From NCBI RefSeq assembly GCF_000378425.1, contig NZ_KB899818.1, positions 1 through 64,000 of the forward strand: a stretch of DNA of 64,000 nt, given 5' to 3'. This DNA comes from Cohnella laeviribosi DSM 21336. Its GTDB lineage: Bacteria > Bacillota > Bacilli > Paenibacillales > Paenibacillaceae. Positions 8,527 to 19,552 of the stretch are shown one piece after another; positions within the stretch are counted from its first letter, which is position 1, and every line of letters begins with the position of its first letter. The position numbers and the translations under genes are program-made. The notes below the pieces were generated by a model. The model saw nothing but the letters and a program-made list of their open reading frames with translations. It had not been told where the DNA came from and made no database searches.

Positions 8527-9894
8527 TTAGAGCCCGGCGATGGACCGGGATGTTGTAACCTCGGAAAACGAATTGGCGGGTCTGGGCAGGCCCAGATGCT
8601 CGCGCAGCGTCCGGCCGGCATACTCGGTGCGGAACAGCCCGCGCCGCTGCAGCTCGGGGATGACGAGCCGCGCAAACTCTTCCAGCCCGCCCGGCAAATA
8701 CGGAGGCATGACGTTAAAACCGTCGCTGCCGCCGCTCACAAACCACGCTTCCAATTGGTCGGCAACCTGGACCGCCGTTCCGGCAAAGGTCCGATGGCCG
8801 CGTCCGCCGGCAAGGCGATGCAGCAGCTGCCGAATCGTCAACTTTTCGCGTTGGGCGAGATCGACGACGAGCTGAAACCGGCTTCGGTTGCCGTTGATGG
8901 TCTCCGCCGGCGGCAATTCCGGCAGCGGCCCGTCGAGCGGATACGTGTACAAATCGACGCCGAGCATGTTGGAGAGCTGGTGCAGACCGTACTCCGGCAC
9001 CGTAAGCTCGTTCAGCTCCCGCTCCTTCTCGATCGCCTCCGATTCGGTCTCGCCGATCACCGCGCAGATGCCCGGCAATATCTTCAGCTCTTCGGGGTTG
9101 CGGCCGAACCGCGCCGCCCTTGCCTACACGTCGGCGTAAAACCGCTGAGCCTCCTCCAGCGTCTGCTGCGCGGTAAAGATGGCCTCGGCGTGCTGCGCGG
9201 CGAATTCCTTGCCGTCTTCGGAAGAGCCGGCCTGAACGAGCACCGGATAGCCTTGCGGGGATGTCGGCACGTTGAGCGGCCCGCGAACCTTGAACGACTC
9301 GCCGGCATGCTGGATCTCCCGCACCTTGCGGTCGTCGGCAAAGATCCCCGACGCCTTGTCGAGCACCAGGGCGTCGTCCTCCCAGCTGTCCCACAGTCCC
9401 TTCGCCACCTGCAGGAACTCCCTCGCGCGCTCGTAGCGTTTGCCGTGCTCAAGGTGCGCATCCCGATTGAAATTCAGCGCTTCGAACGGGCTTGCGGACG
9501 TGACGATATTCCAGCCCGCGCGTCCGCCGCTGATATGATCGAGCGAGGCGAACTTGCGCGCCACGTGAAACGGCTCGTTGTAGGTCGTCGAAACGGTGCC
9601 GATCAGCCCGATATGGCGGGTGACCGCCGACAGCGCGGACAGCAGCGTAAACGGCTCGAGCCCGACGGAGCCGCCGTGGCGGATGTTTTTGTTGACGGCC
9701 AAGCCGTCCGCGAGGAACAGCGAATCGAATTTGGCCTCCTCGGCGATGCGGGCGAGCCGCTCGAAATAGCGGATATCGGTGATGCGGTGCGGTTCCGCGT
9801 CCGGGCGCCGCCATGCCGCTTCATGATGGCCGACGTTCATGATAAACAGATTCAGGTGAAGCTGGCGCTTTGTTTTTCCCATTCGTCCCGACAC
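8527..9894 (-). pseudogene. NtaA/SnaA-type flavin monooxygenase interrupted by one amber codon
   Basis: The two halves are in the same reading frame: 456 codons from 9894 to 8527 with a single internal TAG at 9126-9124 (codon 257). The sequence before it (FYADV) and after it (ARAARFGRNPEELKILPG) joins smoothly into a luciferase-like monooxygenase of the NtaA/SnaA/DszA/SoxA group, which use reduced flavin to attack sulfonates, sulfones or chelators. Family length is about 440-460 residues, so nothing else is missing. One base change from AAG or CAG would give this stop. The gene sits between the transporter permease and the dioxygenase. It may be a recent pseudogene, a suppressed gene or a sequencing error. 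Confidence 0.85.
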
Positions 9895-9906: not shown

Positions 9907-10749
9907 TTATTCGTTGTACGTCTGCTTCCAGCCGGTCAGCCGCCGTTCCAAAGCGACCAGCGCGTAGTTGGCGATCAGGCCGATCGCCGAGATGGTGATG
10001 ATCCCCGCGTACATGTCCGGGATGAGAAAGCTGAACTGCGCATACTGGATCAAATAGCCGAGGCCGGATTTCGCGCCGACCATCTCCGCTGCGACCAGGA
10101 CGAGAATGGAGCTTGCGGCCGCCTGCCGGATGCCGACAAAGATGGTCGGAATCGAAGCCGGGATCATGACCTTGCGGAACAGGCGGACGGACGACAGCCC
10201 CATCGAGCGGGCCGACTTGATCAGCAGCGGATCGACGTTGCGGACGCCGCTGATCGTGTTGATGAGCAGCGGGAAGAAGCAGGCGTAAAAAACGATCGCG
10301 ACTTTCGACGTTTCGCCAAGACCGAGCAGCAGGATAAACACGGGCAAAATCGCCAGCGCCGCCGTATTGCGCAGCAGCTCGAGCATCGGGTTCAAATATT
10401 CGGACACCGGCTTCCACCAGCCGATCGCCAGGCCGAGCGGGATGCTGACCGCAATCGCCAGGAAAAATCCGCCCGCCGAGCGGCTCAGGCTGGCCAGCGC
10501 GTGATCGGCCAGATCGCCGGACAGCAGCAGCCGCCACCAAGCTTCGGCCACCTCCGAAAGCGGCGGCAAAAAGGTTCCGTCGACCAGTCCGGCGCGCGGC
10601 GCAATCTCCCATAAGGCGAGGAAGGCGGCGATCACAACCGTGTTTTTCAGCAGCTTGCCAAGCCTCGCCAAAAGCCGTCCCGGCGGGCCGAAGCCGCTTT
10701 TTTCACGAAGAACAAGCGTCCTTCCCACTCCCCCGTCAGCCATCCGCAA
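9907..10749 (-). CDS. ABC transporter permease, SsuC/TauC type
   Basis: The 280-residue inner-membrane permease has about six hydrophobic helices and the BPD_transp_1 EAA loop, visible as the stretch around RSMGLSSVRLFRKVMIPASIP (near residues 180-200), which contacts the ATPase. SsuC/TauC/NitT-type permeases import sulfonates, nitrate or thiamine precursors with one binding protein and one ATPase. The gene overlaps the upstream ATPase gene by 14 bases and precedes the flavin monooxygenase gene by 12 bases, consistent with translational coupling. The pairing with monooxygenase and TauD-like enzymes favours sulfonate import. Confidence 0.9.
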   Translation of the reverse strand: MRMADGGVGRTLVLREKSGFGPPGRLLARLGKLLKNTVVIAAFLALWEIAPRAGLVDGTFLPPLSEVAEAWWRLLLSGDLADHALASLSRSAGGFFLAIAVSIPLGLAIGWWKPVSEYLNPMLELLRNTAALAILPVFILLLGLGETSKVAIVFYACFFPLLINTISGVRNVDPLLIKSARSMGLSSVRLFRKVMIPASIPTIFVGIRQAAASSILVLVAAEMVGAKSGLGYLIQYAQFSFLIPDMYAGIITISAIGLIANYALVALERRLTGWKQTYNE

Positions 10750-11614
10750 CCGCTCCTTTCAATGGAGACCTTCCGCCCGGAAAGGCCTCGAGGCTATTGC
10801 TTTTCTCCTGCTCCTGCGCCTTGCTTACTTCGTCCTTGAGCAAATCCCACACTTCATGCCGCAGCTTGACGAACGCCGAATCCGATCTGAAGTCTTCCTC
10901 TCCGCTGCGGGAGGCGAAGGGAATGTCGACGATCCGCTTGATGCGTCCCGGGCGGGACGTCATGACGGCGACCCGTTGGCCGAGATAGACCGCCTCGTCG
11001 ATGCCGTGCGTGATAAAAATGACGGTTTTGCCCGTCGCTTCCCAAATGCGCAGAAGTTCGCTCTGCAGCGTCTCGCGCGTCTGCGCATCCAGCGCGGCAA
11101 ACGGTTCGTCCATCAGCAGCACGTCCGGATCGTAAGCCAAGCTGCGCGCGATGGCGACCCGCTGCCGCATCCCGCCCGACAGCTCGTGCGGATACCGGTT
11201 CTCGAACCCGGCGAGGCCGACCAGCTCGAGGAACTCTTTCGCGATTTTTCTTCTCTGCCTTCGGCCGATCCCTTTGGCCTCCAGTCCGAATTCGACGTTC
11301 GCGAGCGCCGTCTTCCACGGAAACAGCGCATACTGCTGAAACACGATGCCGCGGTCCAGGTTCGGGCCTTCGATCGGCTTGCCGTCAAGCAGGATGCGGC
11401 CGCTGCTTGGCTTCGACAGCCCGGCCAGCAGATCGAGCAAGGTGGACTTGCCGCAGCCGCTCGGGCCGACGATGACCATGAATTCCCCCTGCCGCACGTC
11501 CAGATGAATGTCCTGCAGCGCGGATATCGGGTGGAATTCCTCCTTGAGATGGCCTAAATTCCGCTGGACCCGGAACGATTTGTACACATGCTGAATGCTG
11601 ATTTTGGCCGTCAT
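10736..11614 (-). CDS. ABC transporter ATP-binding protein, SsuB/TauB type
   Basis: The 292-residue ATPase powers import. Walker A is GPSGCGKST (about residues 50-58), the signature is LSGGMRQR, Walker B is VLLMDEPFAALD, and the switch His is in FITHGIDEA. An upstream extension of the frame exists, but ATG at 11614 follows AAGGAG at a proper distance and begins MTAKISIQHVYKSF, as in the family. Its ATG overlaps the stop of the binding-protein gene (ATGA), so the two are translationally coupled. Partner of the permease just downstream. Confidence 0.92.
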   Translation of the reverse strand: MTAKISIQHVYKSFRVQRNLGHLKEEFHPISALQDIHLDVRQGEFMVIVGPSGCGKSTLLDLLAGLSKPSSGRILLDGKPIEGPNLDRGIVFQQYALFPWKTALANVEFGLEAKGIGRRQRRKIAKEFLELVGLAGFENRYPHELSGGMRQRVAIARSLAYDPDVLLMDEPFAALDAQTRETLQSELLRIWEATGKTVIFITHGIDEAVYLGQRVAVMTSRPGRIKRIVDIPFASRSGEEDFRSDSAFVKLRHEVWDLLKDEVSKAQEQEKSNSLEAFPGGRSPLKGAVADG

Positions 11615-12666
11615 GGCGCCGCTCCTTCCTCCGCGCGGTACGGATTGAATTCGTTCGTGTACAAGTCTGCCGCTTTGAGCTGGCCTTCCTTCAGCGTCCC
11701 TTCCGCCACCAGCCAATCGATCCACGTCTGGAATTCGGACTCGGCAATGAGCCCCCCTTTGCCCACGACGCCTGTGCTTTTCCAGTATTTAACGGCCGAC
11801 GCGTCCTCCTTCCTTCCCCGTTCGGCGATGATTTTTTCAAAGCGGGCGATCACTTCCTCCCGCGGCGTCGTGCGCGCCCACTCGATCGCTTTCGCCGTCG
11901 CCTCCACAAACTTGCGCGTCGCGTTCGGATTTTCCTTGATGAACTTGTCCGTCAGCACGTATGTTCCGGCGCTGAAGGTGCCGAACAGGTCGATGTCCCG
12001 GAACAGCGGCCGAATGCCGCCCCGCTCCAGCGCCTTGTCGCGAAGCAGGCCGCCAAGCGTGGCGACGTCCACCTGATGGGCTCTGAGCGTCTGCTCCGAC
12101 GTGACCGGCGGCACCACGACAAGCGTCACCTGCTCGATCTCCTTGGGCGTCAGCCCTTCCCGGTGCAAATACTCCTTGATGACGAATTCGTGATGCGCGC
12201 CCAGCGTGTTGACGGCAATCTTCTTGCCGATCAGGTCTTTGGCCGTCCGAATCGGGCTGTCGTCGAGCACGTAATAGCCCGTCCAAGTGTTTTCGTCGAC
12301 GCCGTAATACGAAATGACCGGCGTAACGGCCGCCTTGGCCGCCAGCAGCTTGACGATCGCCCCGTTGAAGGCGCCGCCGAAATCCGTGTCGCCGGTCACG
12401 ACCGCTTGAATATCCTGCGGGCCGCTGATCGTATTGCCGATAAATTTCAGCTTCAGCGGCGCCAAGTAGCCGAGATCTTCGGCCAGTTCGGGGAACGTCA
12501 CCGCCCCGACGCTTCCCTGGTAGCGCAGTTCCGTCACTTCAAGCCCTTCCGGATTGGCTGCATGCGCGGAGGACGGCTCTTTCGCTCCGCACCCGGACAA
12601 TACGATCGCCGAAGCGACCGCAGGAGCCAATACGGCGCCGATGCGCTTTAACCACCGGTTTCCCAT
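11611..12666 (-). CDS. Substrate-binding lipoprotein, SsuA/TauA/NMT1 type
   Basis: This is the extracellular solute receptor of the importer (351 residues). It begins with a basic stretch and hydrophobic segment ending in a lipobox, LSGCG, so it is lipid-anchored. The NMT1-like fold follows, including the GxxDFGGAFNGAIVKLLA region after the first half-domain and a second domain from about residue 180. Two adjacent ATGs are possible (12669 and 12666); GGGAGG is 4 and 7 bases upstream respectively, favouring the second. It is the first gene of the minus-strand operon and stands head-to-head with the HTH/binding-protein fusion gene. Confidence 0.92.
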   Translation of the reverse strand: MGNRWLKRIGAVLAPAVASAIVLSGCGAKEPSSAHAANPEGLEVTELRYQGSVGAVTFPELAEDLGYLAPLKLKFIGNTISGPQDIQAVVTGDTDFGGAFNGAIVKLLAAKAAVTPVISYYGVDENTWTGYYVLDDSPIRTAKDLIGKKIAVNTLGAHHEFVIKEYLHREGLTPKEIEQVTLVVVPPVTSEQTLRAHQVDVATLGGLLRDKALERGGIRPLFRDIDLFGTFSAGTYVLTDKFIKENPNATRKFVEATAKAIEWARTTPREEVIARFEKIIAERGRKEDASAVKYWKSTGVVGKGGLIAESEFQTWIDWLVAEGTLKEGQLKAADLYTNEFNPYRAEEGAAP

Positions 12667-12853
12667 CATCCAACCTCCCATTTGACTCCGTTTCTTTAAG
12701 CTCATAATTCCCATAGACTTGATATGCTTTTGTTTCTATAATGGAATGTACTATCGGCTCCATGACGCGTCAATAAAATGGCAACACATGAAGGCGAATG
12801 ACGACGAATGATCACCACACTTCCGATTGGCCCGGGAAGGAGGCGCTATTTCG

Positions 12854-14089
12854 ATGTCCGTTAACCGATTCGAACCGTTCCTTACGCTGCACGAGGCGAT
12901 CGATTTGCTCGGCGTCAGCCGTTCGACCTTCGACCGCTGGCGCAAGCAGAAGCGGCTGCCCGTCATCAAGATCGGCAAAGAAATCTGGATCGACAAAAAC
13001 GAGCTGGAGCAATGGGTCCGCCATCACTCCTCTTCCCGTCCGGACGCGCAAAAGCCTTCGGTTCCGGCGTCCGACCTTCGCCCTTCGTCCGGGCGAATGA
13101 CCGTCGCCGTCGGCTACCAGAGCGGATCGGCGCATATGTGGACGGCGCTGCTGATGAAAGAGCTTGGCTGGTTCGAGGAAGAGCTGGCCCGCGTCTGCCC
13201 GCAGGCGTCCGTAAGATGGATCGACGCGGCCAACGGTCCGTCCCTGCTGCAAGGCCTGATCGGCGGCAGCATCCAAATCGCCTCGCTCGGCGATTATCCG
13301 ATCATGCTCGGCTTTTCGCTCAGCCGGTCGCTGCCCGCCTTTCGCCCCGTCCTGCTCGCCTTCGACGGCAAAACGGCCGGCGGCAGAGGCATCTCCCTCG
13401 TGGCGCGGAAAGATCTCGTCATTCGCTGCGCATCCGAACTGGCCGGTCTGCCCCTTGCGACCGTCCCGCAATCCAGCGCGGGGCGGCGGCTGGCCAAGTG
13501 GCTGCGCTCGCTCGGTTACGGCGAGGAACGGCTCGTACATAAAGACATAGCGGAAAGCGCGGCGGCACTTAGACAGGGCGAAATCGCCGGAAGCGTCATG
13601 TGGGAACCGCATGTAACCTTGATGGAACAGCGCGGAGAAGGGAAAATCTTTTTCAAGGAGGGATTCGGAGAGGACTTCCTGACCGGCATCGTCGCGGAGG
13701 AAAATTGGGCTCGCCAGCATCCGGAAGCGGCCGCGGCTTACGTGAAGGCGCACATCCGCGTCCACCATCTGCTGCGCGGCGACGTCCATGTGGCTTCCCG
13801 CATCATCTCCCGCCTAAGCGGCATACCCGCGGAGACGGCCGCCCGCATCATCGCCAAAGTCAGGTGGGACGCGTCGGTCTACGACAAAGACCTGCGGACG
13901 CTCAGCCGGCTCATGCCGGAGGAGGCCGCGACGAAGGAGGCCGGAGCGGCTGATGCGCCCCGGGACGCGGGCGGAACGGACTATTCGCCTATGTCCGAAT
14001 ATTTTCGCCGGGCGGTCGAAGCCTTGAAGCTGCCGGACCCCGGCGCGCGCCCGGTGCAAGGGGACTGGTCGGATGAGCAGCATTATTGA
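12854..14089 (+). CDS. HTH DNA-binding domain fused to a cytoplasmic SsuA-like ligand-binding domain
   Basis: The 411-residue protein starts with an excisionase/MerR-like helix-turn-helix (residues 5-55: FLTLHEAIDLLGVSRSTFDR, then W.K.K.LPVIKIGKE and DKNELEQW), followed by a linker and then a periplasmic-binding-protein fold of the NMT1/SsuA kind from about residue 78 (TVAVGYQSGSAHMWTALLMK...GSIQIASLGDYPIML...). There is no signal peptide or membrane helix, so the binding domain works inside the cell, presumably as the sensor of a one-component regulator. ATG at 12854 lies 10 bases after AAGGAGG. The gene is divergent from the operon whose binding protein has the same fold; a TATAAT at 12737-12742 is a candidate -10. 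Activator or repressor role is unknown. Confidence 0.85.
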   Translation: MSVNRFEPFLTLHEAIDLLGVSRSTFDRWRKQKRLPVIKIGKEIWIDKNELEQWVRHHSSSRPDAQKPSVPASDLRPSSGRMTVAVGYQSGSAHMWTALLMKELGWFEEELARVCPQASVRWIDAANGPSLLQGLIGGSIQIASLGDYPIMLGFSLSRSLPAFRPVLLAFDGKTAGGRGISLVARKDLVIRCASELAGLPLATVPQSSAGRRLAKWLRSLGYGEERLVHKDIAESAAALRQGEIAGSVMWEPHVTLMEQRGEGKIFFKEGFGEDFLTGIVAEENWARQHPEAAAAYVKAHIRVHHLLRGDVHVASRIISRLSGIPAETAARIIAKVRWDASVYDKDLRTLSRLMPEEAATKEAGAADAPRDAGGTDYSPMSEYFRRAVEALKLPDPGARPVQGDWSDEQHY

Positions 14090-14299
14090 AGGCGCGCGGG
14101 CCGCGGGAAAGCCATGACGGCGCGAACCGGCTTCCGGCGGCGTCCCGGCGTTCCGGTGCCGGACGGCTGGCGCCTAACGGCTACTATAGAACCACTGGCG
14201 CCTCTGCCCGCGCATGCTCGACCTGCTCTCCTCTTACCGGCTGCCGCTTGCCGCCGACGCACAATGCAGCCCGGCGCGCTTGAATGCGGCCTTTTCCTG
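14090..14299. other. Gap without a recognisable gene
   Basis: The GC-rich stretch after the regulator stop shows open frames on both strands, but none with a ribosome site or recognisable protein. I see no convincing terminator. It ends at the Fur-controlled promoter. Confidence 0.5.
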
Positions 14300-14328
14300 T
14301 TGACAATGAAAATGAGAATTGTTATCAT
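14300..14328 (+). promoter_or_regulatory. SigA promoter with overlapping Fur box
   Basis: TTGACA at 14300-14305 and TATCAT at 14323-14328 are 17 bases apart. TGAGAATTGTTATCA at 14313-14327 fits the Fur 7-1-7 element (12 of 14 positions), and the 19-base classic box starting at 14314 matches at 15 positions. The operator covers the spacer and -10, so iron-loaded Fur should block transcription of the downstream binding-protein gene. Confidence 0.85.
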
Positions 14329-14385
14329 TATCTCTGTTTTGATCACTCTATCAAACACGACGAAACCATGAGGGGGAGCAACAAC

Positions 14386-15405
14386 GTGTCACACAGCAAA
14401 ACCAAATTCACATTCGTACTTGTCAGCTTAATGATCTTGTCCCTGGTTCTTGCGGCCTGCGGCGGCAATGCGTCCAACAACGCTGCTAGCGGTTCGCCCA
14501 GCGCGCCGGCGTCGAGCCCGTCCGAGAGCCAAGCAACTGCCGGCGCATCCGAAACGCCCGACGCTTCGGCCGAAAGAACGTTGACGGACGGCCTTGGCCA
14601 TGAAGTGAAGGTGCCGGCCAACCCGCAGCGCATTATCGCCTCCTATTTGGAAGACCATCTGGTCGCGCTCGGTGTGAAGCCCGTCGCCCAATGGTCGGTC
14701 GCTAACGGCATCCAGGATTATTTGCAAACCGAACTGAAAGGCATTCCGACGATCTCCTACGATCTGCCTTACGAAGCGGTCTCGAGCTTCTCGCCGGACT
14801 TGATCATCATCGGGTCGTCCTCGACGGTCGAAGGCGACAAATACGCTCAATATTCCAAAATCGCGCCGACCTACGTCCTTGGCGACGAAATCAACAACGA
14901 TTGGCGGAAGGCTTTGCTGAAAATCGGGGAAGTGCTGAACAAAAGCGAAGAAGCGCAAAAGGCGCTGGACGAATACGAGGCTAAAGCCAAGGAAGCGAAA
15001 GAGAAGCTGCAGCAAACGATCGGAAACGAATCCGCCGCCGTTCTCTGGCTCATTCAGAAGCAGTTTTACATCGTCAGCGATAAACTGTCCAGCGGCGCCG
15101 TATTGTACGGCGATCTGGGCCTGAAGGTGCCCGAAGTCGTCAAGGAAATTTCCGCAAGCGGCACGGCAAGCTGGAACCCGATTTCGCTCGAAAAGCTGGC
15201 CGAACTGGACGCGGATCACATTTTCCTCGTCAACAGCGACAAGTCGACGGGCTCCGAAGCGCTTAAGGATCCGATCTGGAAAAACATTCCTGCCGTCAAA
15301 AACGGGCATGTGTACGAGTTCGACAGCACCCACAGCTGGCTGTATTCCGGCGCGATCGCGAACAGCCAGATTATCGACGACGTGATCGCAAGCGTCGCCA
15401 AGTAA
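14386..15405 (+). CDS. Iron-siderophore ABC transporter binding lipoprotein
   Basis: The 339-residue protein is a class III (FecB/BtuF-like) solute-binding protein. It has a lipoprotein signal ending in LVLAACGGN, a Ser/Ala/Pro-rich linker, and the Peripla_BP_2 domain beginning RTLTDGLGHEVKVPANPQRIIA, followed by the long helical backbone between lobes (KSEEAQKALDEYEAKAKEAKEK). GTG at 14386 sits 7 bases after AGGGGGAG and is preferred to the ATG at 14368. It is preceded by a Fur-box promoter, so expression should rise under iron starvation. No permease or ATPase gene adjoins, so it must share transporter parts encoded elsewhere. Confidence 0.9.
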   Translation: MSHSKTKFTFVLVSLMILSLVLAACGGNASNNAASGSPSAPASSPSESQATAGASETPDASAERTLTDGLGHEVKVPANPQRIIASYLEDHLVALGVKPVAQWSVANGIQDYLQTELKGIPTISYDLPYEAVSSFSPDLIIIGSSSTVEGDKYAQYSKIAPTYVLGDEINNDWRKALLKIGEVLNKSEEAQKALDEYEAKAKEAKEKLQQTIGNESAAVLWLIQKQFYIVSDKLSSGAVLYGDLGLKVPEVVKEISASGTASWNPISLEKLAELDADHIFLVNSDKSTGSEALKDPIWKNIPAVKNGHVYEFDSTHSWLYSGAIANSQIIDDVIASVAK

Positions 15406-15606
15406 CTGCGTTTCCGCGCCCGGTAGATTGTCTTTTTGCTGCAACGCCGTTCGGAAGCCCGGCGCCCTGCGCGTTCGGCTGCCTGACCGCTGCGGCAAGG
15501 AGACCTGGGATCGTCCTTGAAAAAGAAGGCTGTCCTCGAAAAATCTGTTCACGTGTGACGGACAGGCAACTGAAGAGAAAAACATGCAAAAATGAGGAAA
15601 TGGCGG

Positions 15607-15641
15607 TGCAAGGGGGTTACCCCTGCATCGTCGTTTTTTTT
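15607..15641 (+). terminator. Terminator-like hairpin with T-run
   Basis: TGCAAGGGG and CCCCTGCA pair around a GTTA loop with one bulged A, followed by TCGTCG and eight T residues. It lies 200 bases after the siderophore-binding gene and can end that transcript. A CTGTCC/GGACAG inverted repeat stands a little upstream, near 15530-15565, in a stretch resembling a transposon edge. Confidence 0.7.
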
Positions 15642-15673
15642 GCTTCCGGTCTGTTCTATTGACGCTTTCTTGA

Positions 15674-15897
15674 CATCCGAACAGCCGGGAGGAACTGCAG
15701 TTGCCATAACCGCAACTGCAGAACCCGTTTTCGCGCGATCCCCCGATTGAAGTGCCAAAAAGGCAATTAAATCCGTCATCTCCCCCATCCGACCGGCCGG
15801 GCGAGGCTGCAGTTGCCGTAACCGCAACTGCAGAGCCCGTTTTCGCGCGATCCCCCGATTGAAGTGCCAAAAAGGCAATTAAAATCGGGCATCTTGC
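15674..15897. repeat. Tandem 112-bp repeat, two copies plus a partial third
   Basis: Units start at 15674 and 15786. Their 77-base cores (15695-15771 and 15807-15883) differ at only two positions. Each core holds a 10-base perfect inverted repeat CTGCAGTTGC/GCAACTGCAG with a 7-base loop, then a conserved stretch with CGTTTTCGCGCGATCCCCCG and a smaller TGCC/GGCA hairpin. The segment after the second core (to about 15912) again resembles the start of a unit. Together with the terminator this accounts for most of the gene-free stretch 15406-16015. It resembles a dispersed intergenic repeat family; other copies cannot be checked here. Confidence 0.85.
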
Positions 15898-16015
15898 CCT
15901 CCGGCCTGTCGGATGGACGGGGCTGAAATCCTCAATCTTCACATTCGTGCTTAAGCTTCTAATCGAAGAGAGGATGTGGGGACACCGCGATCGCCCGGAC
16001 CGGCATCCGACGGCG

Positions 16016-17836
16016 TCAGCCGGGACCGTAAGCGGCCCCTTTGAGCGCCCACCAGACGAGCAGGGCCGCGCACAGGCATGCGGCCGCGAGCAATAGGCTG
16101 TCGCGCCGGCTCCATCGCAGCGCCGGGCGAACTTCGGGGTACGGCCGGCGGCCGACGCCGCGGCTTTCCAGCGCGAGCGCCGCTTGATCGCCCAGCCGAA
16201 ACAGCGCCAGCAAAAAGGGGATTGCCGTATCCTTAAGCCTTGCGATCGCATTCCTGGCCGTCATGCGGCCGGTTTTGCCCCTGGCGACGGCCAGCCGTTC
16301 GAACCGTTCCCACTCCCCGAGCAGAACCGGAATAAACCGCATGAGCAGCGTGACGGTCAAAATAAAGTTTTGCGCGCGCCGACCGACGCACCCCCTTCTT
16401 GCCAACAGCTGCTCAAGCGATTTCCGCAGCCGCAGCGGCGTGATGACCAGCGTCATTCCAAGCCCGATCAGCATGACGAGCAGCGTGCGTCCCATGGAAT
16501 GCAGGGCGGTAAGCGTCGCTTCCGCGTTCAACAGGCTCGAGCCGCCCGCCCCCGTCCCTGCCGCCAAGGATACTGCCACGGAAAAGACACAGAACGCGAT
16601 AATCGCCCCCCGCCATCTGCGCAGCGGAATGCGGGCCCAGACGATCGTAAACAGCACGATCGCCGCGCCGATCCCGAGCCCCGTCCAGTCCCGGACGGTA
16701 AAAATCGCAGCCGACATGACGATATAGGCAAGCCACACGGCCCGCGGATCGTACCCGGCCAGCCTCGATTGCCGCAGGCCGTCGGGCTCCGGGGCGGAAG
16801 CCGGACGTTTGAAGACGCCGGCTTCGGAAACGGCGCGTCCGATCGCACTTTGTTCATGCGCCGAAAGTCCCGCGTCCGCGCGCAAAGTTCCCCGTTCGGC
16901 GGTCGGCAGAAAGGGGCCGTACGGCATGCTGCCGGCTTCTATCGGCGTCAAGCGCGCGGATTCCCCATTCGGGGCGCTTGACTCCGGCGAAAAACGCAAC
17001 GGGTCATCTTCTTCCGGACTCGCCAGCTCCTTTGCCAGCGCGGAGACATCCCAGACCGCTTCCGGCGTTGCGCCTTCCTTAAGCCAGTCTCCCGCAAGCC
17101 GCAGCCATTCCGGCACTTCCATGCCCGCTTCGGCCCACAGTTCGGGGCAAGCGAGCAGCTCGTCCCGTCCGCACAGCCGTTTGGCGCCCGAGGACGCGAT
17201 CAGCAACACCTGGTCGGCAAGCGGCAGCGCCCATTCCGTGTCGTGCGAAACCACCACCACGCCCCGGCCTTCCCGCGCCGCATGGATCAGCCGCTCGGCG
17301 AGCAGCGCATGCCCTTCGGCGTCAAGGCCCGCCGTCGGCTCGTCCAGCAGCAGCCATCGCGCCGGTACGGCGAGCAGACAGGCCAGCGCGAGACGTCTGC
17401 GTTCGCCCCCGCTCATGCGGAACGGGTCGCGCTCCAACCAGGCGGAATCCCAACCGACCGCCGCCAGCGCCTCGGTTTGCCGGCGCAGCCGCTCTTCCTT
17501 CGCCAGCCCGTAAGGCCGCAGCGCATACTCCAGTTCGGCCGCGACCGTGCGCGCCGCCAGCTGCTCCTCCGGAGCCTGGCTGGCATAGGCATAAGCCATC
17601 AGCGCCGCCGGGTTTTGCCTGGGGCGAAGCCGCAAGTCCGCCGTCCACAGATCGGACGGCCCGTAAGCGACGCCAACGCCTTCCGAAAACCGCAAACCGG
17701 CCAACTGCTCCAGCCAAAAGGTTTTGCCCGCGCCGCTGGGTCCGAATACGACCGTAATCGTGCCCGGCTTAAATTGCCAACGCCGGCCGTTCTCCGTTAC
17801 CGACAAGTCCCAACGTTCATGGACCGATTTCGACAC
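16016..17836 (-). CDS. EcfA-EcfT fusion of a biotin ECF transporter
   Basis: Two parts normally made as separate proteins are joined in 606 residues. Residues 1-230 are an ECF ATPase: Walker A GPSGAGKT, signature MSGGERRRLALA, Walker B WLLLDEPTAGLD and switch His VVVSHDTEW. A low-complexity linker (about 270-360) leads to an EcfT/CbiQ membrane domain with five or six helices and both ARG-type coupling motifs, VARGKTG and ESRGVGRR, which bind the ATPases. GTG start at 17836 with GGGAG 6 bases upstream; the gene overlaps the second ATPase gene by 20 bases. With EcfA and the divergent bioY it makes a complete ECF module. No frameshift or stop interrupts the joint. Confidence 0.9.
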   Translation of the reverse strand: MSKSVHERWDLSVTENGRRWQFKPGTITVVFGPSGAGKTFWLEQLAGLRFSEGVGVAYGPSDLWTADLRLRPRQNPAALMAYAYASQAPEEQLAARTVAAELEYALRPYGLAKEERLRRQTEALAAVGWDSAWLERDPFRMSGGERRRLALACLLAVPARWLLLDEPTAGLDAEGHALLAERLIHAAREGRGVVVVSHDTEWALPLADQVLLIASSGAKRLCGRDELLACPELWAEAGMEVPEWLRLAGDWLKEGATPEAVWDVSALAKELASPEEDDPLRFSPESSAPNGESARLTPIEAGSMPYGPFLPTAERGTLRADAGLSAHEQSAIGRAVSEAGVFKRPASAPEPDGLRQSRLAGYDPRAVWLAYIVMSAAIFTVRDWTGLGIGAAIVLFTIVWARIPLRRWRGAIIAFCVFSVAVSLAAGTGAGGSSLLNAEATLTALHSMGRTLLVMLIGLGMTLVITPLRLRKSLEQLLARRGCVGRRAQNFILTVTLLMRFIPVLLGEWERFERLAVARGKTGRMTARNAIARLKDTAIPFLLALFRLGDQAALALESRGVGRRPYPEVRPALRWSRRDSLLLAAACLCAALLVWWALKGAAYGPG

Positions 17837-18833
17837 GCCGTTCTCCCGCCTTTCCCGAACGCGCCTCTTTTGGATTCGCCTCTTTCGGATGCGCTTCTCT
17901 CATATCCGTATCTCTCATCTGCGCCTCACCCGGATTCGCCTCGATAGGATGCGCCTCCGGATGTTCCTTTCTCGGATGCTCTCTTTCCGAGTGCGCCTTC
18001 GCCGGATCCGGACGCAGCTTCGCCGCCTGCCACTCTTCCAACGATACGGGCAGCGGATGCGCAAGCTTGCCGGCACGGCCCAGCTCCAGGGCCAGCCTTG
18101 CCAAATAAGGCAGCCGAAGGCCGCATTCGGCGCACGGAGAAACGCCGCTTCCCGGCTCCCCGTAGAAAAAATTCCGGACATTGCCGTCGTAGCGGATGCG
18201 TCCCCCGGACAGCGCGATAACGCGGCGATCGGGCCCCAGCTCGTCCAGCCGTTGGGTGATCCAGATAACCGCCGCGCCGCGCGCCTCCAACTGCCCGGCC
18301 ATTGCGCGGACCCGGCGGCGCGCCGCATCGTCCAGCATCGAAGTCGCTTCGTCGAACACGATCAAATCCGGCTCTCCCGCATACGCGGCGGCAATGGCCG
18401 CCATTTGCCGCTGCCCTCCGGACAGCCGGCTCCAGGGCAAATCCGCCGCCTCGCTCAGCCCGGCAAGATGCAGCGCCCGCTCGGCTTTCCGCTCCGCCTC
18501 CTCCTGCGGCAAGCCGAGCCATTCAAGCGCAAAAGCCAGTTCCTCGCGTGGCGTTTGCCCGAACAGTTGAGCGTCCGGCTGCTGCATGACATAGGCCGCC
18601 GGATAAAACCCGGCAAAGCCGCGCTCGACCGTTCCGCGGACTTCTCCCGCCGACAGTCCGGCGGCAAGCCGTCCCAATGTCGATTTGCCGCTGCCGTTCG
18701 CCCCGACGACATACAACCATTCGCCCTTATGTACCGTCAAGTTCAGTCCGAGGGCGATCGGCCTCGTCTCGCCGGTTCCGTAGACGGACACATCGACCAA
18801 CCGCAGGGGGCCTTCGTGATTTTCCCCGTTCAT
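17817..18833 (-). CDS. ECF transporter ATPase (EcfA)
   Basis: The 338-residue protein is the other ATPase of the ECF module: Walker A VGANGSGKST, Q-loop MQQPDAQLFGQT (typical of ECF ATPases), signature LSGGQRQM, Walker B LIVFDEATSMLDD. ATG at 18833 follows GAGGG at 8 bases and replaces a longer upstream frame. The last 60 residues are unusual: a charged tail built of imperfect EAHP/EANP/KEA repeats that no ECF ATPase needs. It is transcribed divergently from bioY across a BirA-type operator, so both sides are probably biotin-controlled. Confidence 0.9.
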   Translation of the reverse strand: MNGENHEGPLRLVDVSVYGTGETRPIALGLNLTVHKGEWLYVVGANGSGKSTLGRLAAGLSAGEVRGTVERGFAGFYPAAYVMQQPDAQLFGQTPREELAFALEWLGLPQEEAERKAERALHLAGLSEAADLPWSRLSGGQRQMAAIAAAYAGEPDLIVFDEATSMLDDAARRRVRAMAGQLEARGAAVIWITQRLDELGPDRRVIALSGGRIRYDGNVRNFFYGEPGSGVSPCAECGLRLPYLARLALELGRAGKLAHPLPVSLEEWQAAKLRPDPAKAHSEREHPRKEHPEAHPIEANPGEAQMRDTDMREAHPKEANPKEARSGKAGERRVEIGP

Positions 18834-18873
18834 GCCATTTCCCTCTTCCCAATCGCAAGCTCTCGTGCTACAA

Positions 18874-18918
18874 TTCGAAATGTTAACCACGATTCAAAAA
18901 TTAGGTTAACATTTCGAA
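18874..18918. promoter_or_regulatory. BirA-type biotin operator
   Basis: TTCGAAATGTTAACC (18874-18888) and GGTTAACATTTCGAA (18904-18918) are perfect 15-base inverted arms around a 15-base spacer. The core TGTTAACC-N15-GGTTAACA fits the known BirA operator of Firmicutes. It lies between bioY and the ecfA genes, so the biotin-loaded BirA repressor should shut both. BirA itself is not in the window. Confidence 0.9.
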
Positions 18919-18931
18919 AGGGGTTTTGACA

Positions 18932-19552
18932 ATGCCGTATTCCACCGAATCCTCGACATCGCCCAATCCGGGCGCGACCCAACCGATCCATCGCCTTCGG
19001 GGCATCGTGTACACGGCCCTGTTCGCCGCGCTGTTCATCGCGTTCAGCTGGGTTCAAATTCCGCTCGGCTTCTCGCCGGTGCCGGTTACGCTGCAGACGC
19101 TTGCCGTTATGCTCGCAGGAGGCCTGCTGGGCGCTACATACGGATTCTGGAGCATCGCCATCGTCGTCCTGCTGACCGCCGTCGGTCTGCCGCTGCTGGA
19201 AGGACGCGGCGGTCTGTCTACCGTCTTCGGTCCGACGGGCGGCTATATCTGGATGTTCCCGATCTCCGCCCTGCTGATCGGCTTCGTCAGCGACCGGCTG
19301 TTCCGCGGCTCAGGGCGGCTGAACGCATGGCGCATCGCCGTTCTCGCCGCCGCGATCGCGTTGTTCGGCGTCGTGTTCCCGTATGTGGCGGGCGTGCCCT
19401 GGCTGGCCTACAAGCTGGACATGTCCTTCGCGAAGGCCATGGCTGCCGGCTGCTATCCGTTCATCCCCGGAGATACGATCAAGGGTGTGGCGGCTGTGGC
19501 GATTATCGCCCTGCTGCGGCCTCTGCTTCCCGGCCTGCGCGGACGCGGCTAA
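18932..19552 (+). CDS. bioY: Biotin ECF transporter S component BioY
   Basis: BioY is the membrane-embedded biotin receptor of ECF importers. The 206-residue protein has six hydrophobic helices and the family landmarks: the AALFAALFIAFSWVQIPLG first helix, VPVTLQTLAVMLAGGLLG, the GPTGGYIWMFPISA loop and a C-terminal PFIPGDTIKG. ATG at 18932 is 8 bases after AAAGGGG, which overlaps the right arm of the biotin operator. The energising module is encoded just across that operator, so here BioY works with a dedicated, not a shared, EcfAAT complex. Confidence 0.95.
   Translation: MPYSTESSTSPNPGATQPIHRLRGIVYTALFAALFIAFSWVQIPLGFSPVPVTLQTLAVMLAGGLLGATYGFWSIAIVVLLTAVGLPLLEGRGGLSTVFGPTGGYIWMFPISALLIGFVSDRLFRGSGRLNAWRIAVLAAAIALFGVVFPYVAGVPWLAYKLDMSFAKAMAAGCYPFIPGDTIKGVAAVAIIALLRPLLPGLRGRG

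Follow-up and report, generated by a model that had tools for sequence, protein, structure and literature searches.

Introduction

Several bacterial transcription factors bear a solute-binding-protein domain, among them SgrR (a helix-turn-helix, HTH, with SBP_bac_5) and Btr (AraC with Peripla_BP_2), but these pair other HTHs with other binding-protein families and are not known to be linked to sulfonate genes. The LysR-type proteins Cbl, SsuR and CysB are known local activators of such genes, with an effector domain of the type-2 periplasmic-like kind; their HTH is the LysR winged HTH, which differs from the HTH_17 domain of the regulator described here, and profile searches of this regulator at E up to 1 returned no LysR family. 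The same HTH family joined to a binding-protein domain, and divergent from the gene of an ABC solute-binding protein (SBP), does occur elsewhere in the same genome (locus L004, G000:C1, ~796-2765), where a protein matching HTH_17 at 60.6 bits and PBP_like (PF12727) at 218 bits is encoded head-to-head with modA, whose product exceeds the TIGR01256 cut-off. L004 shows that proteins joining HTH_17 to a binding-protein domain already exist alongside transporter genes, and is a parallel, molybdate-type version of the design. Its sensor is a PBP_like/ModA-type domain, whereas that of the present regulator is of the NMT1/SsuA type, and its intergenic stretch, inspected by eye, holds no run of the 10-bp repeats reported below.

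According to PMC5859096, BldC of Streptomyces, which has a MerR-like HTH, binds head-to-tail on direct repeats with one protomer per 9-bp repeat, leaving footprints one helical turn apart at sites that vary in repeat number. The loci studied here resemble this in carrying tandem direct repeats about one helical turn (10 bp) apart, but BldC is a protein of 68 residues without a sensor domain and with the unit AATTXXXX(C), whereas the present regulator is fused to a binding-protein domain and its loci carry the unit TGA[C/G]NANNAA at a 10-bp period. For the binding-protein domain the relevant comparison is TauA, in which, according to PMC6906117, the Gln30 side chain holds the sulfonate together with main-chain groups of Gly61, Gly79 and Thr132, while Glu106, Thr132 and Asp205 bind the amine of taurine. 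The regulator's sensor has its fold and its sulfonate-contact positions in common with SsuA and TauA; unlike them, it has no export signal, is fused to an HTH, lacks equivalents of Glu106 and Asp205, and is sister not to SsuA but to a lipoprotein family here called SBPC. Among the open PMC papers listed by searches on such a fusion or on sulfonate regulation, we recognised no description of it.

Here we describe this regulator in a window of 64,000 nucleotides from Cohnella laeviribosi DSM 21336 (NZ_KB899818.1, positions 1 to 64,000) and compare it with its relatives. The main new result is a specific candidate operator, a set of 10-bp repeats in the divergent promoter.

An HTH Joined to a Cytoplasmic Binding-Protein Domain

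The gene and its two domains are placed as follows.

12854..14089, + strand: regulator gene, 411 aa, with an HTH_17 N-terminus and a cytoplasmic SsuA/TauA-like binding-protein domain (profiles, predicted model, hydropathy)
12878..13024, + strand: HTH_17/excise domain, residues 9-57, with recognition helix SRSTFDRWR (profiles)
13097..13858, + strand: sensor domain, approximately residues 82-335, with proposed oxyanion-anchoring positions Q89, G128, G146 and S208 (profiles, model, alignments)

The reading frame opens at ATG 12854, with AAGGAGG 10 nt upstream, and closes with a stop codon at 14087-14089. An earlier note, made from the DNA letters, had claimed an HTH joined to an SsuA/TauA-like domain without signal peptide or membrane helix, and this architecture is borne out: residues 9-57 exceed the curated cut-offs of both Pfam HTH_17 (40.5 bits; cut-off 27) and NCBIfam excise (33.8; cut-off 28.8), and the sensor passes the gathering score of NMT1_2 (28.0 bits; cut-off 24.7). 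Searched against the PDB at E up to 10, the HTH profile returned three chains, DBP48 (E 0.09), RacA (0.33) and RppC (0.65), with BldC absent. No signal peptide or transmembrane segment was found in the window's regulator, its 19-residue hydropathy means peaking at 1.16 overall and at 0.61 within the first 60 residues. Among 42 regulators the largest such means range from 0.78 to 2.10, and a lipobox-like motif occurs in the first 60 residues of 1/42 regulators vs 44/50 SBP reading frames, some contigs being counted twice. Since it lacks an export signal, we do not class the protein as SsuA or TauA, but only as a regulator that contains a domain of this kind. Two relatives, at L017 (6956-7981) and L018 (6965-7981), have 341 and 338 aa and are thus ~70 residues shorter overall, with the HTH and the start of the sensor well conserved.

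The earlier note had proposed a fold search, and a periplasmic-binding fold was found by profiles, by phmmer and by Foldseek on a predicted model. Against TIGR01728 (SsuA_fam) the sensor reaches E 4e-18 over residues 84-338, its 65.5 bits lying under the curated cut-off of 163.5, and phmmer of the regulator finds TauA 6ssy (E 5e-9) and SsuA 2x26 (E 2e-7). An AlphaFold model built from 12 aligned regulators, of moderate confidence (mean pLDDT 69.7; within the sensor most 10-residue means fall in the range 70-93, the lowest reaching 53), has SsuA 3ksx and TauA 6ssy as its best solved matches at E ~5e-15 and TM by target of 0.66-0.71.

The presumed sulfonate contacts are strongly conserved. Equivalents of TauA Gln30, Gly61, Gly79 and Thr132 are kept as Q89 (39/39, with one gap), G128 (40/40), G146 (40/40) and S208 (39/40), where we take Q89 to match Gln30 from the GYQ motif aligned to SsuA and from the TauA numbering. 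By alignment, the taurine-specific residues are absent from the window's regulator: Ile180 stands for Glu106 (Ile in 37/40 regulators) and Thr277 for Asp205 (Thr in 35/40). The Trp176 equivalent, W250, is kept in the window and lost in 11/12 type A and 3/3 type D regulators compared (operon types A to D are defined below). Positions 91, 92, 129, 206 and 250 vary with operon type, a comparison that phylogeny confounds, and Q89, W96, G128, G146, D147, D171-G172-K173, S207, R212, E251, D274 and W285 are, among others, invariant in 39 regulators beside the four types, only some of these positions being known to line the pocket. The kept anchors and type-specific positions fit a non-taurine organosulfonate with type-specific R groups, or, as far as the invariant positions go, a common oxyanion.

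In a 90-domain tree the sensors of 40 regulators form one clade (100/97), sister to 13 SBPC lipoproteins (98/96; together 100/99) and apart from SsuA, SBPA and TauA-like proteins. This tree was midpoint-rooted and drew long-branch warnings; it includes L109 and leaves out the shortened or split regulators of L017, L018 and L087. Because the sister group is SBPC, the tree indicates one recruitment of the sensor, from the SBPC side, and on the same tree the regulator now appears mostly beside operons with SBPs other than SBPC. Descent of the sensor from the SBP encoded next to it is rejected on this topology, the sister lipoproteins being a different family. SBPC-family lipoproteins also cluster, at L110, L111, L112 and L113, with ABC ATPase-like proteins and unassigned proteins of ~430-490 aa and 620-640 aa, where this SBP family is put to another use.

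Linkage to Divergent Sulfonate-Type Operons

The regulator gene faces an operon on the opposite strand.

11611..12669, - strand: divergent gene 1, an NMT1-type lipoprotein SBP, type A (profiles)
10736..11614, - strand: ABC ATPase of the taurine/nitrate type, same operon (profiles)
9907..10749, - strand: ABC permease of the Ssu/Tau type, same operon (profiles)
8527..9894, - strand: FMN monooxygenase of the NtaA/DmoA family, with one in-frame TAG at 9124-9126 (profiles, alignment)

Divergent gene 1 matches PF09084 (NMT1-type) at 74.4 bits (cut-off 20.5) and SsuA_fam at E 8e-19, under the curated cut-off. Accordingly, where the earlier note saw a head-to-head operon beginning with a true SsuA-like lipoprotein, the divergent arrangement and the NMT1-type lipoprotein stand, and "SsuA-like" holds at superfamily level only. 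Its start lies at ~12666-12669 (Shine-Dalgarno GGAGG, then MGNRWLKRIG...LSGC) rather than at 12714. The monooxygenase frame has 455 codons before its stop, and 10/10 aligned relatives have Lys at the TAG position; the TAG may be either a recent nonsense change, making a pseudogene, or a sequence error. A riboswitch or other known RNA was rejected, since a comparison of the entire window with Rfam gave nothing at the gathering threshold. Downstream of the regulator (14284-19552) lie a Peripla_BP_2 lipoprotein gene and then ABC ATPase genes that resemble those of an ECF transporter, in one of which the T component seems to be fused, with a BioY-like gene; these names were given by eye except Peripla_BP_2, which was assigned by profile.

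The regulator matches 53/394 genomes of its family at 1e-15 or better, several of these matches being SBPs without an HTH, and HTH and sensor occur together in at least 35/394, the window's own included and three of them in pieces. Scoring was confined to the top few candidates of each genome (4 in the family, class and phylum searches, 8 in the ssuA search), so that all genome-search counts are lower bounds. Class and phylum samples of 398 genomes each, drawn evenly and searched at 1e-30, gave beyond the window's own one HTH-bearing protein among the scored candidates (G657, L109), and two other phylum-sample matches are HTH-less SBPC-family lipoproteins beside an FrdA-like enzyme. The named relatives belong to Paenibacillus, Cohnella and one unclassified Paenibacillaceae bacterium. 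A mobile or phage origin was considered and rejected: no relative was confirmed in viral contigs, none of 148 matching plasmid records held one with 80% coverage, and the best plasmid-record match is unannotated, 29% identical and without the HTH part.

The co-occurrence with sulfonate-type operons that the earlier note had suggested looking for is pervasive. At 45/46 regulator loci (the window, L048-L087, L006, L008, L017, L018 and L109; L007 and L009-L016 are omitted as duplicate contigs), an SsuA/NMT1/TauA-type SBP gene lies within 4.5 kb upstream on the opposite strand, and 21 of these loci have ssuA with ssuD. The loci are related, so these counts, and the p-values below, overstate independence. 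By operon type the 45 divide into 15 of type A (the window's type), 21 of type B (ssuA-ssuD), 6 of type C (FrdA/AprA-like flavoprotein with SBPC) and 3 of type D (FAD enzyme with a TauA-like SBP, the match in L084 being only 23% identical). The SBP gene adjoins the regulator at type A and type B loci; at type C and type D loci the two are separated by a flavoprotein gene. At the type B locus L059 both the SBP (PRK11553) and the monooxygenase (TIGR03565) exceed curated NCBIfam cut-offs, which makes them sulfonate genes by NCBI's own criteria. The remaining locus, L109, holds the only regulator detected in another family of the class; it matches none of the four SBP types beside the regulator, and the C-terminal part of its protein reaches no Pfam binding-protein model.

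Two operon kinds merit separate record. Operons of an FrdA/AprA-like flavoprotein with an SsuA-like lipoprotein (SBPC) occur at L063, L066, L067, L072, L075 and L079 and at L107 and L108, with a permease match in most and PRK08275 over its cut-off in L066, and they are also found in distant phylum members without the regulator. At the type D loci L082, L083 and L084 an FAD oxidoreductase and a TauA-like SBP stand beside the regulator, a ferredoxin being identified in L083.

Tandem 10-bp Repeats and a Second Box in the Divergent Promoter

Four elements can be placed between the two divergent coding regions.

12779..12818, + strand: four tandem 10-bp direct repeats, TGGCAACACA TGAAGGCGAA TGACGACGAA TGATCACCAC, the proposed operator next to the operon -35 (repeat scoring)
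12745..12773, - strand: candidate operon promoter, -35 TTGACG (12773-12768), 17 nt, -10 TACATT (12750-12745)
12714..12742, + strand: candidate regulator promoter, TAGACT, 17 nt, TATAAT
12705..12726, + strand: conserved AATTCC box, located in the leader of the operon and across the candidate -35 of the regulator; some of its targets suggest a CymR-like sulfur box

The repeats, which the earlier note did not mention, occupy 12779-12788, 12789-12798, 12799-12808 and 12809-12818 and are the best match to the pattern in the 4.48-Mb genome, with 1 mismatch; three other places match with 2, and the reversed control gives 1. Upstream of the regulators, the best three-unit run exceeds all 60 dinucleotide shuffles in 38/42 loci; L066 is marginal (1/60 shuffles as good), and in the same shuffle test the type D loci L082, L083 and L084 have no such 10-bp repeats. 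As the consensus was derived from the sequences being scored, the test was repeated without it: self-identity at lag 10 has a mean of 14.45/20 (shuffled 10.2) and at lag 20 of 13.02/20, all other lags from 5 to 25 giving ~10.4-11.2. L109, whose upstream region was scored separately and showed no such repeats, stands outside the shuffle, lag, helix/repeat and -35 phase counts, and L058, L085 and L086 enter the linkage and ssuA counts (by tblastn) and are absent from the palindrome, repeat, tree, pocket, helix/repeat and -35 analyses. A palindromic operator was also considered. The window's 10-bp palindrome, TGACGCGTCA, is absent from the palindromes, at most 4, listed for each other locus, and was therefore dropped in favour of the direct repeats.

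Among the 38 loci with both the repeats and the operon -35 TTGAC (L079, without TTGAC, and the three type D loci are skipped), the distance between that TTGAC and the first scored unit is a multiple of 10 in 34, with an offset of +1 in 3 and of +2 in 1; a -10 with at least 4/6 matches at a 16-18 nt spacer is present in only 23/38. Among the best 30 of 63 ssuA matches from 245 genomes of the same family, repeats precede 13/13 ssuA genes with an adjacent regulator (scores 25.5-31.5) vs 0/17 without one within ~1.5 kb (17.0-20.5; L133, L134 and L140 are counted here, the nearby match being SsuA itself). The Fisher value of 8e-9 is overstated, the genes being related, and the two groups also form identity classes, at 62-100% vs 54-67% to the query. 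The repeat unit also varies with the recognition helix: where SR[S/A]T contains Ser, 38/47 TGA-starting units read TGAC and 0 read TGAG, and where it contains Ala, 49/53 read TGAG, loci scoring under 24 being left out. The switch maps on the tree to about one change, at the base of a 21-row clade (93/84), plus L083, which is without repeats, so the tracking of TGAC/TGAG by Ser/Ala is suggestive rather than strong.

The AATTCC box is a different element. Allowing at most 3 mismatches of 13 fixed letters, AATTCCNATNNNNTTACT is found on the + strand of 40/42 upstream regions, vs 5/42 for the opposite strand; mononucleotide shuffles contain it in 9% of cases. The window's copy sits in the operon leader and overlaps the -35 of the candidate promoter at 12714-12742 that would serve the regulator. 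A longer form has 12 matches in the genome vs 5 in the reversed control. Genes beside the 9/12 places scanned (L092, L097 and the window's own were left out) include an OAH sulfhydrylase, an SsuC-like permease, a sulfite-reductase fragment and an HpaB monooxygenase, as well as a LysR and a hydantoinase-type amidase, the latter with its end rather than its start towards the box; at three of the 9, neighbouring reading frames had no match at 1e-20. We read the box as CymR-like, and AATTCC...TTACT would be a separate sulfur-starvation box, probably that of CymR. For B. cereus, PMC3519770 mentions putative CymR-binding motifs at sulfur genes, the alignment of its Figure S2 including ssuB.

Proposed Mechanism and Alternatives

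As a whole, the locus is best explained, and we think with reasonable probability, by a ligand-dependent, local one-component activator of the divergent transporter/monooxygenase operon. Its excisionase/BldC-like HTHs would bind head-to-tail along the tandem 10-bp repeats, on one helix face; since the repeats lie next to the operon -35 and on that one face, the protein is placed as an activator. The signal-less sensor domain would close on an imported organosulfonate, its oxyanion held by Q89, G128, G146 and S208, and closure would favour the active assembly of the regulator on DNA. The earlier note had proposed a switch of this kind, its sensor detecting the sulfonate that the importer brings in; the fold, the cytoplasmic form, the co-occurrence with sulfonate-type operons and the candidate operator support that proposal in part, and a ligand shared with the neighbouring SBP is conceivable. 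Because the repeats are ~30-70 bp downstream of the regulator's candidate start site, binding should damp its own gene, and because the AATTCC box covers the candidate -35 of the regulator as well as the leader of the operon, the operon would need sulfur limitation and substrate both. We put forward more tentatively, and would not count on, a specific form of this scheme in which the binding-protein clamp gates a BldC-like filament, ligand closure controlling head-to-tail HTH_17 assembly on phased 10-bp repeats, in a module that accompanies organosulfur-type operons of four kinds or more. To our knowledge, a ligand-gated head-to-tail filament has not been described as a mode of activation.

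The same regulator and operator could work on another signal, the sensor reading sulfate, sulfite or another small oxyanion as an anti-inducer rather than the imported substrate; APS acts in this way with Cbl in E. coli. The many sensor positions invariant beside four operon types, and a sensor not derived from the neighbouring SBP, are what a gauge of general sulfur supply might show, but the five type-dependent positions vary as they would for different R groups, subject to the same confounding by phylogeny, and the AATTCC box may already read sulfur supply, which leaves an anti-inducer unlikely in our estimate. The sign of regulation might also be reversed, with a ligand-released repressor that forms a filament along the repeats and obstructs RNA polymerase at the -35. 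The repeats do reach the -35 hexamer in register, and PMC5859096 reports precedents in BldC, which protects -60 to -10 at smeA-sffA and controls whiI from -50 to -80, whiI being on early in the mutant. The repeats, however, extend upstream of the -35, in helical phase and not over the -10 or +1, which is the usual place of an activator, and repression could be served by the box that already lies downstream; a repressor seems improbable, the more so than an anti-inducer. It is harder still to credit a fused domain that senses no ligand and has a structural or protein-interaction role, the HTH alone regulating. Replacement of the taurine-amine residues, and loss of the Trp176 equivalent from most type A and all type D regulators compared, are as such a role would have it, but the oxyanion anchors are kept almost without exception while full-length sensors share only 33-55% identity with the window's. 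We thus continue to prefer an activator that responds to an imported organosulfonate.

Implications

The locus offers a testable case of an extracellular nutrient receptor turned into an intracellular transcription switch, for which the sister lipoprotein family, a single origin, the target operons and a candidate operator are all available. Should the repeats prove to be bound in the way suggested here, the regulator would join head-to-tail binding of the BldC type to metabolite sensing, and the sensors of this family may hint at the ligands of the unassigned operons of types A, C and D.
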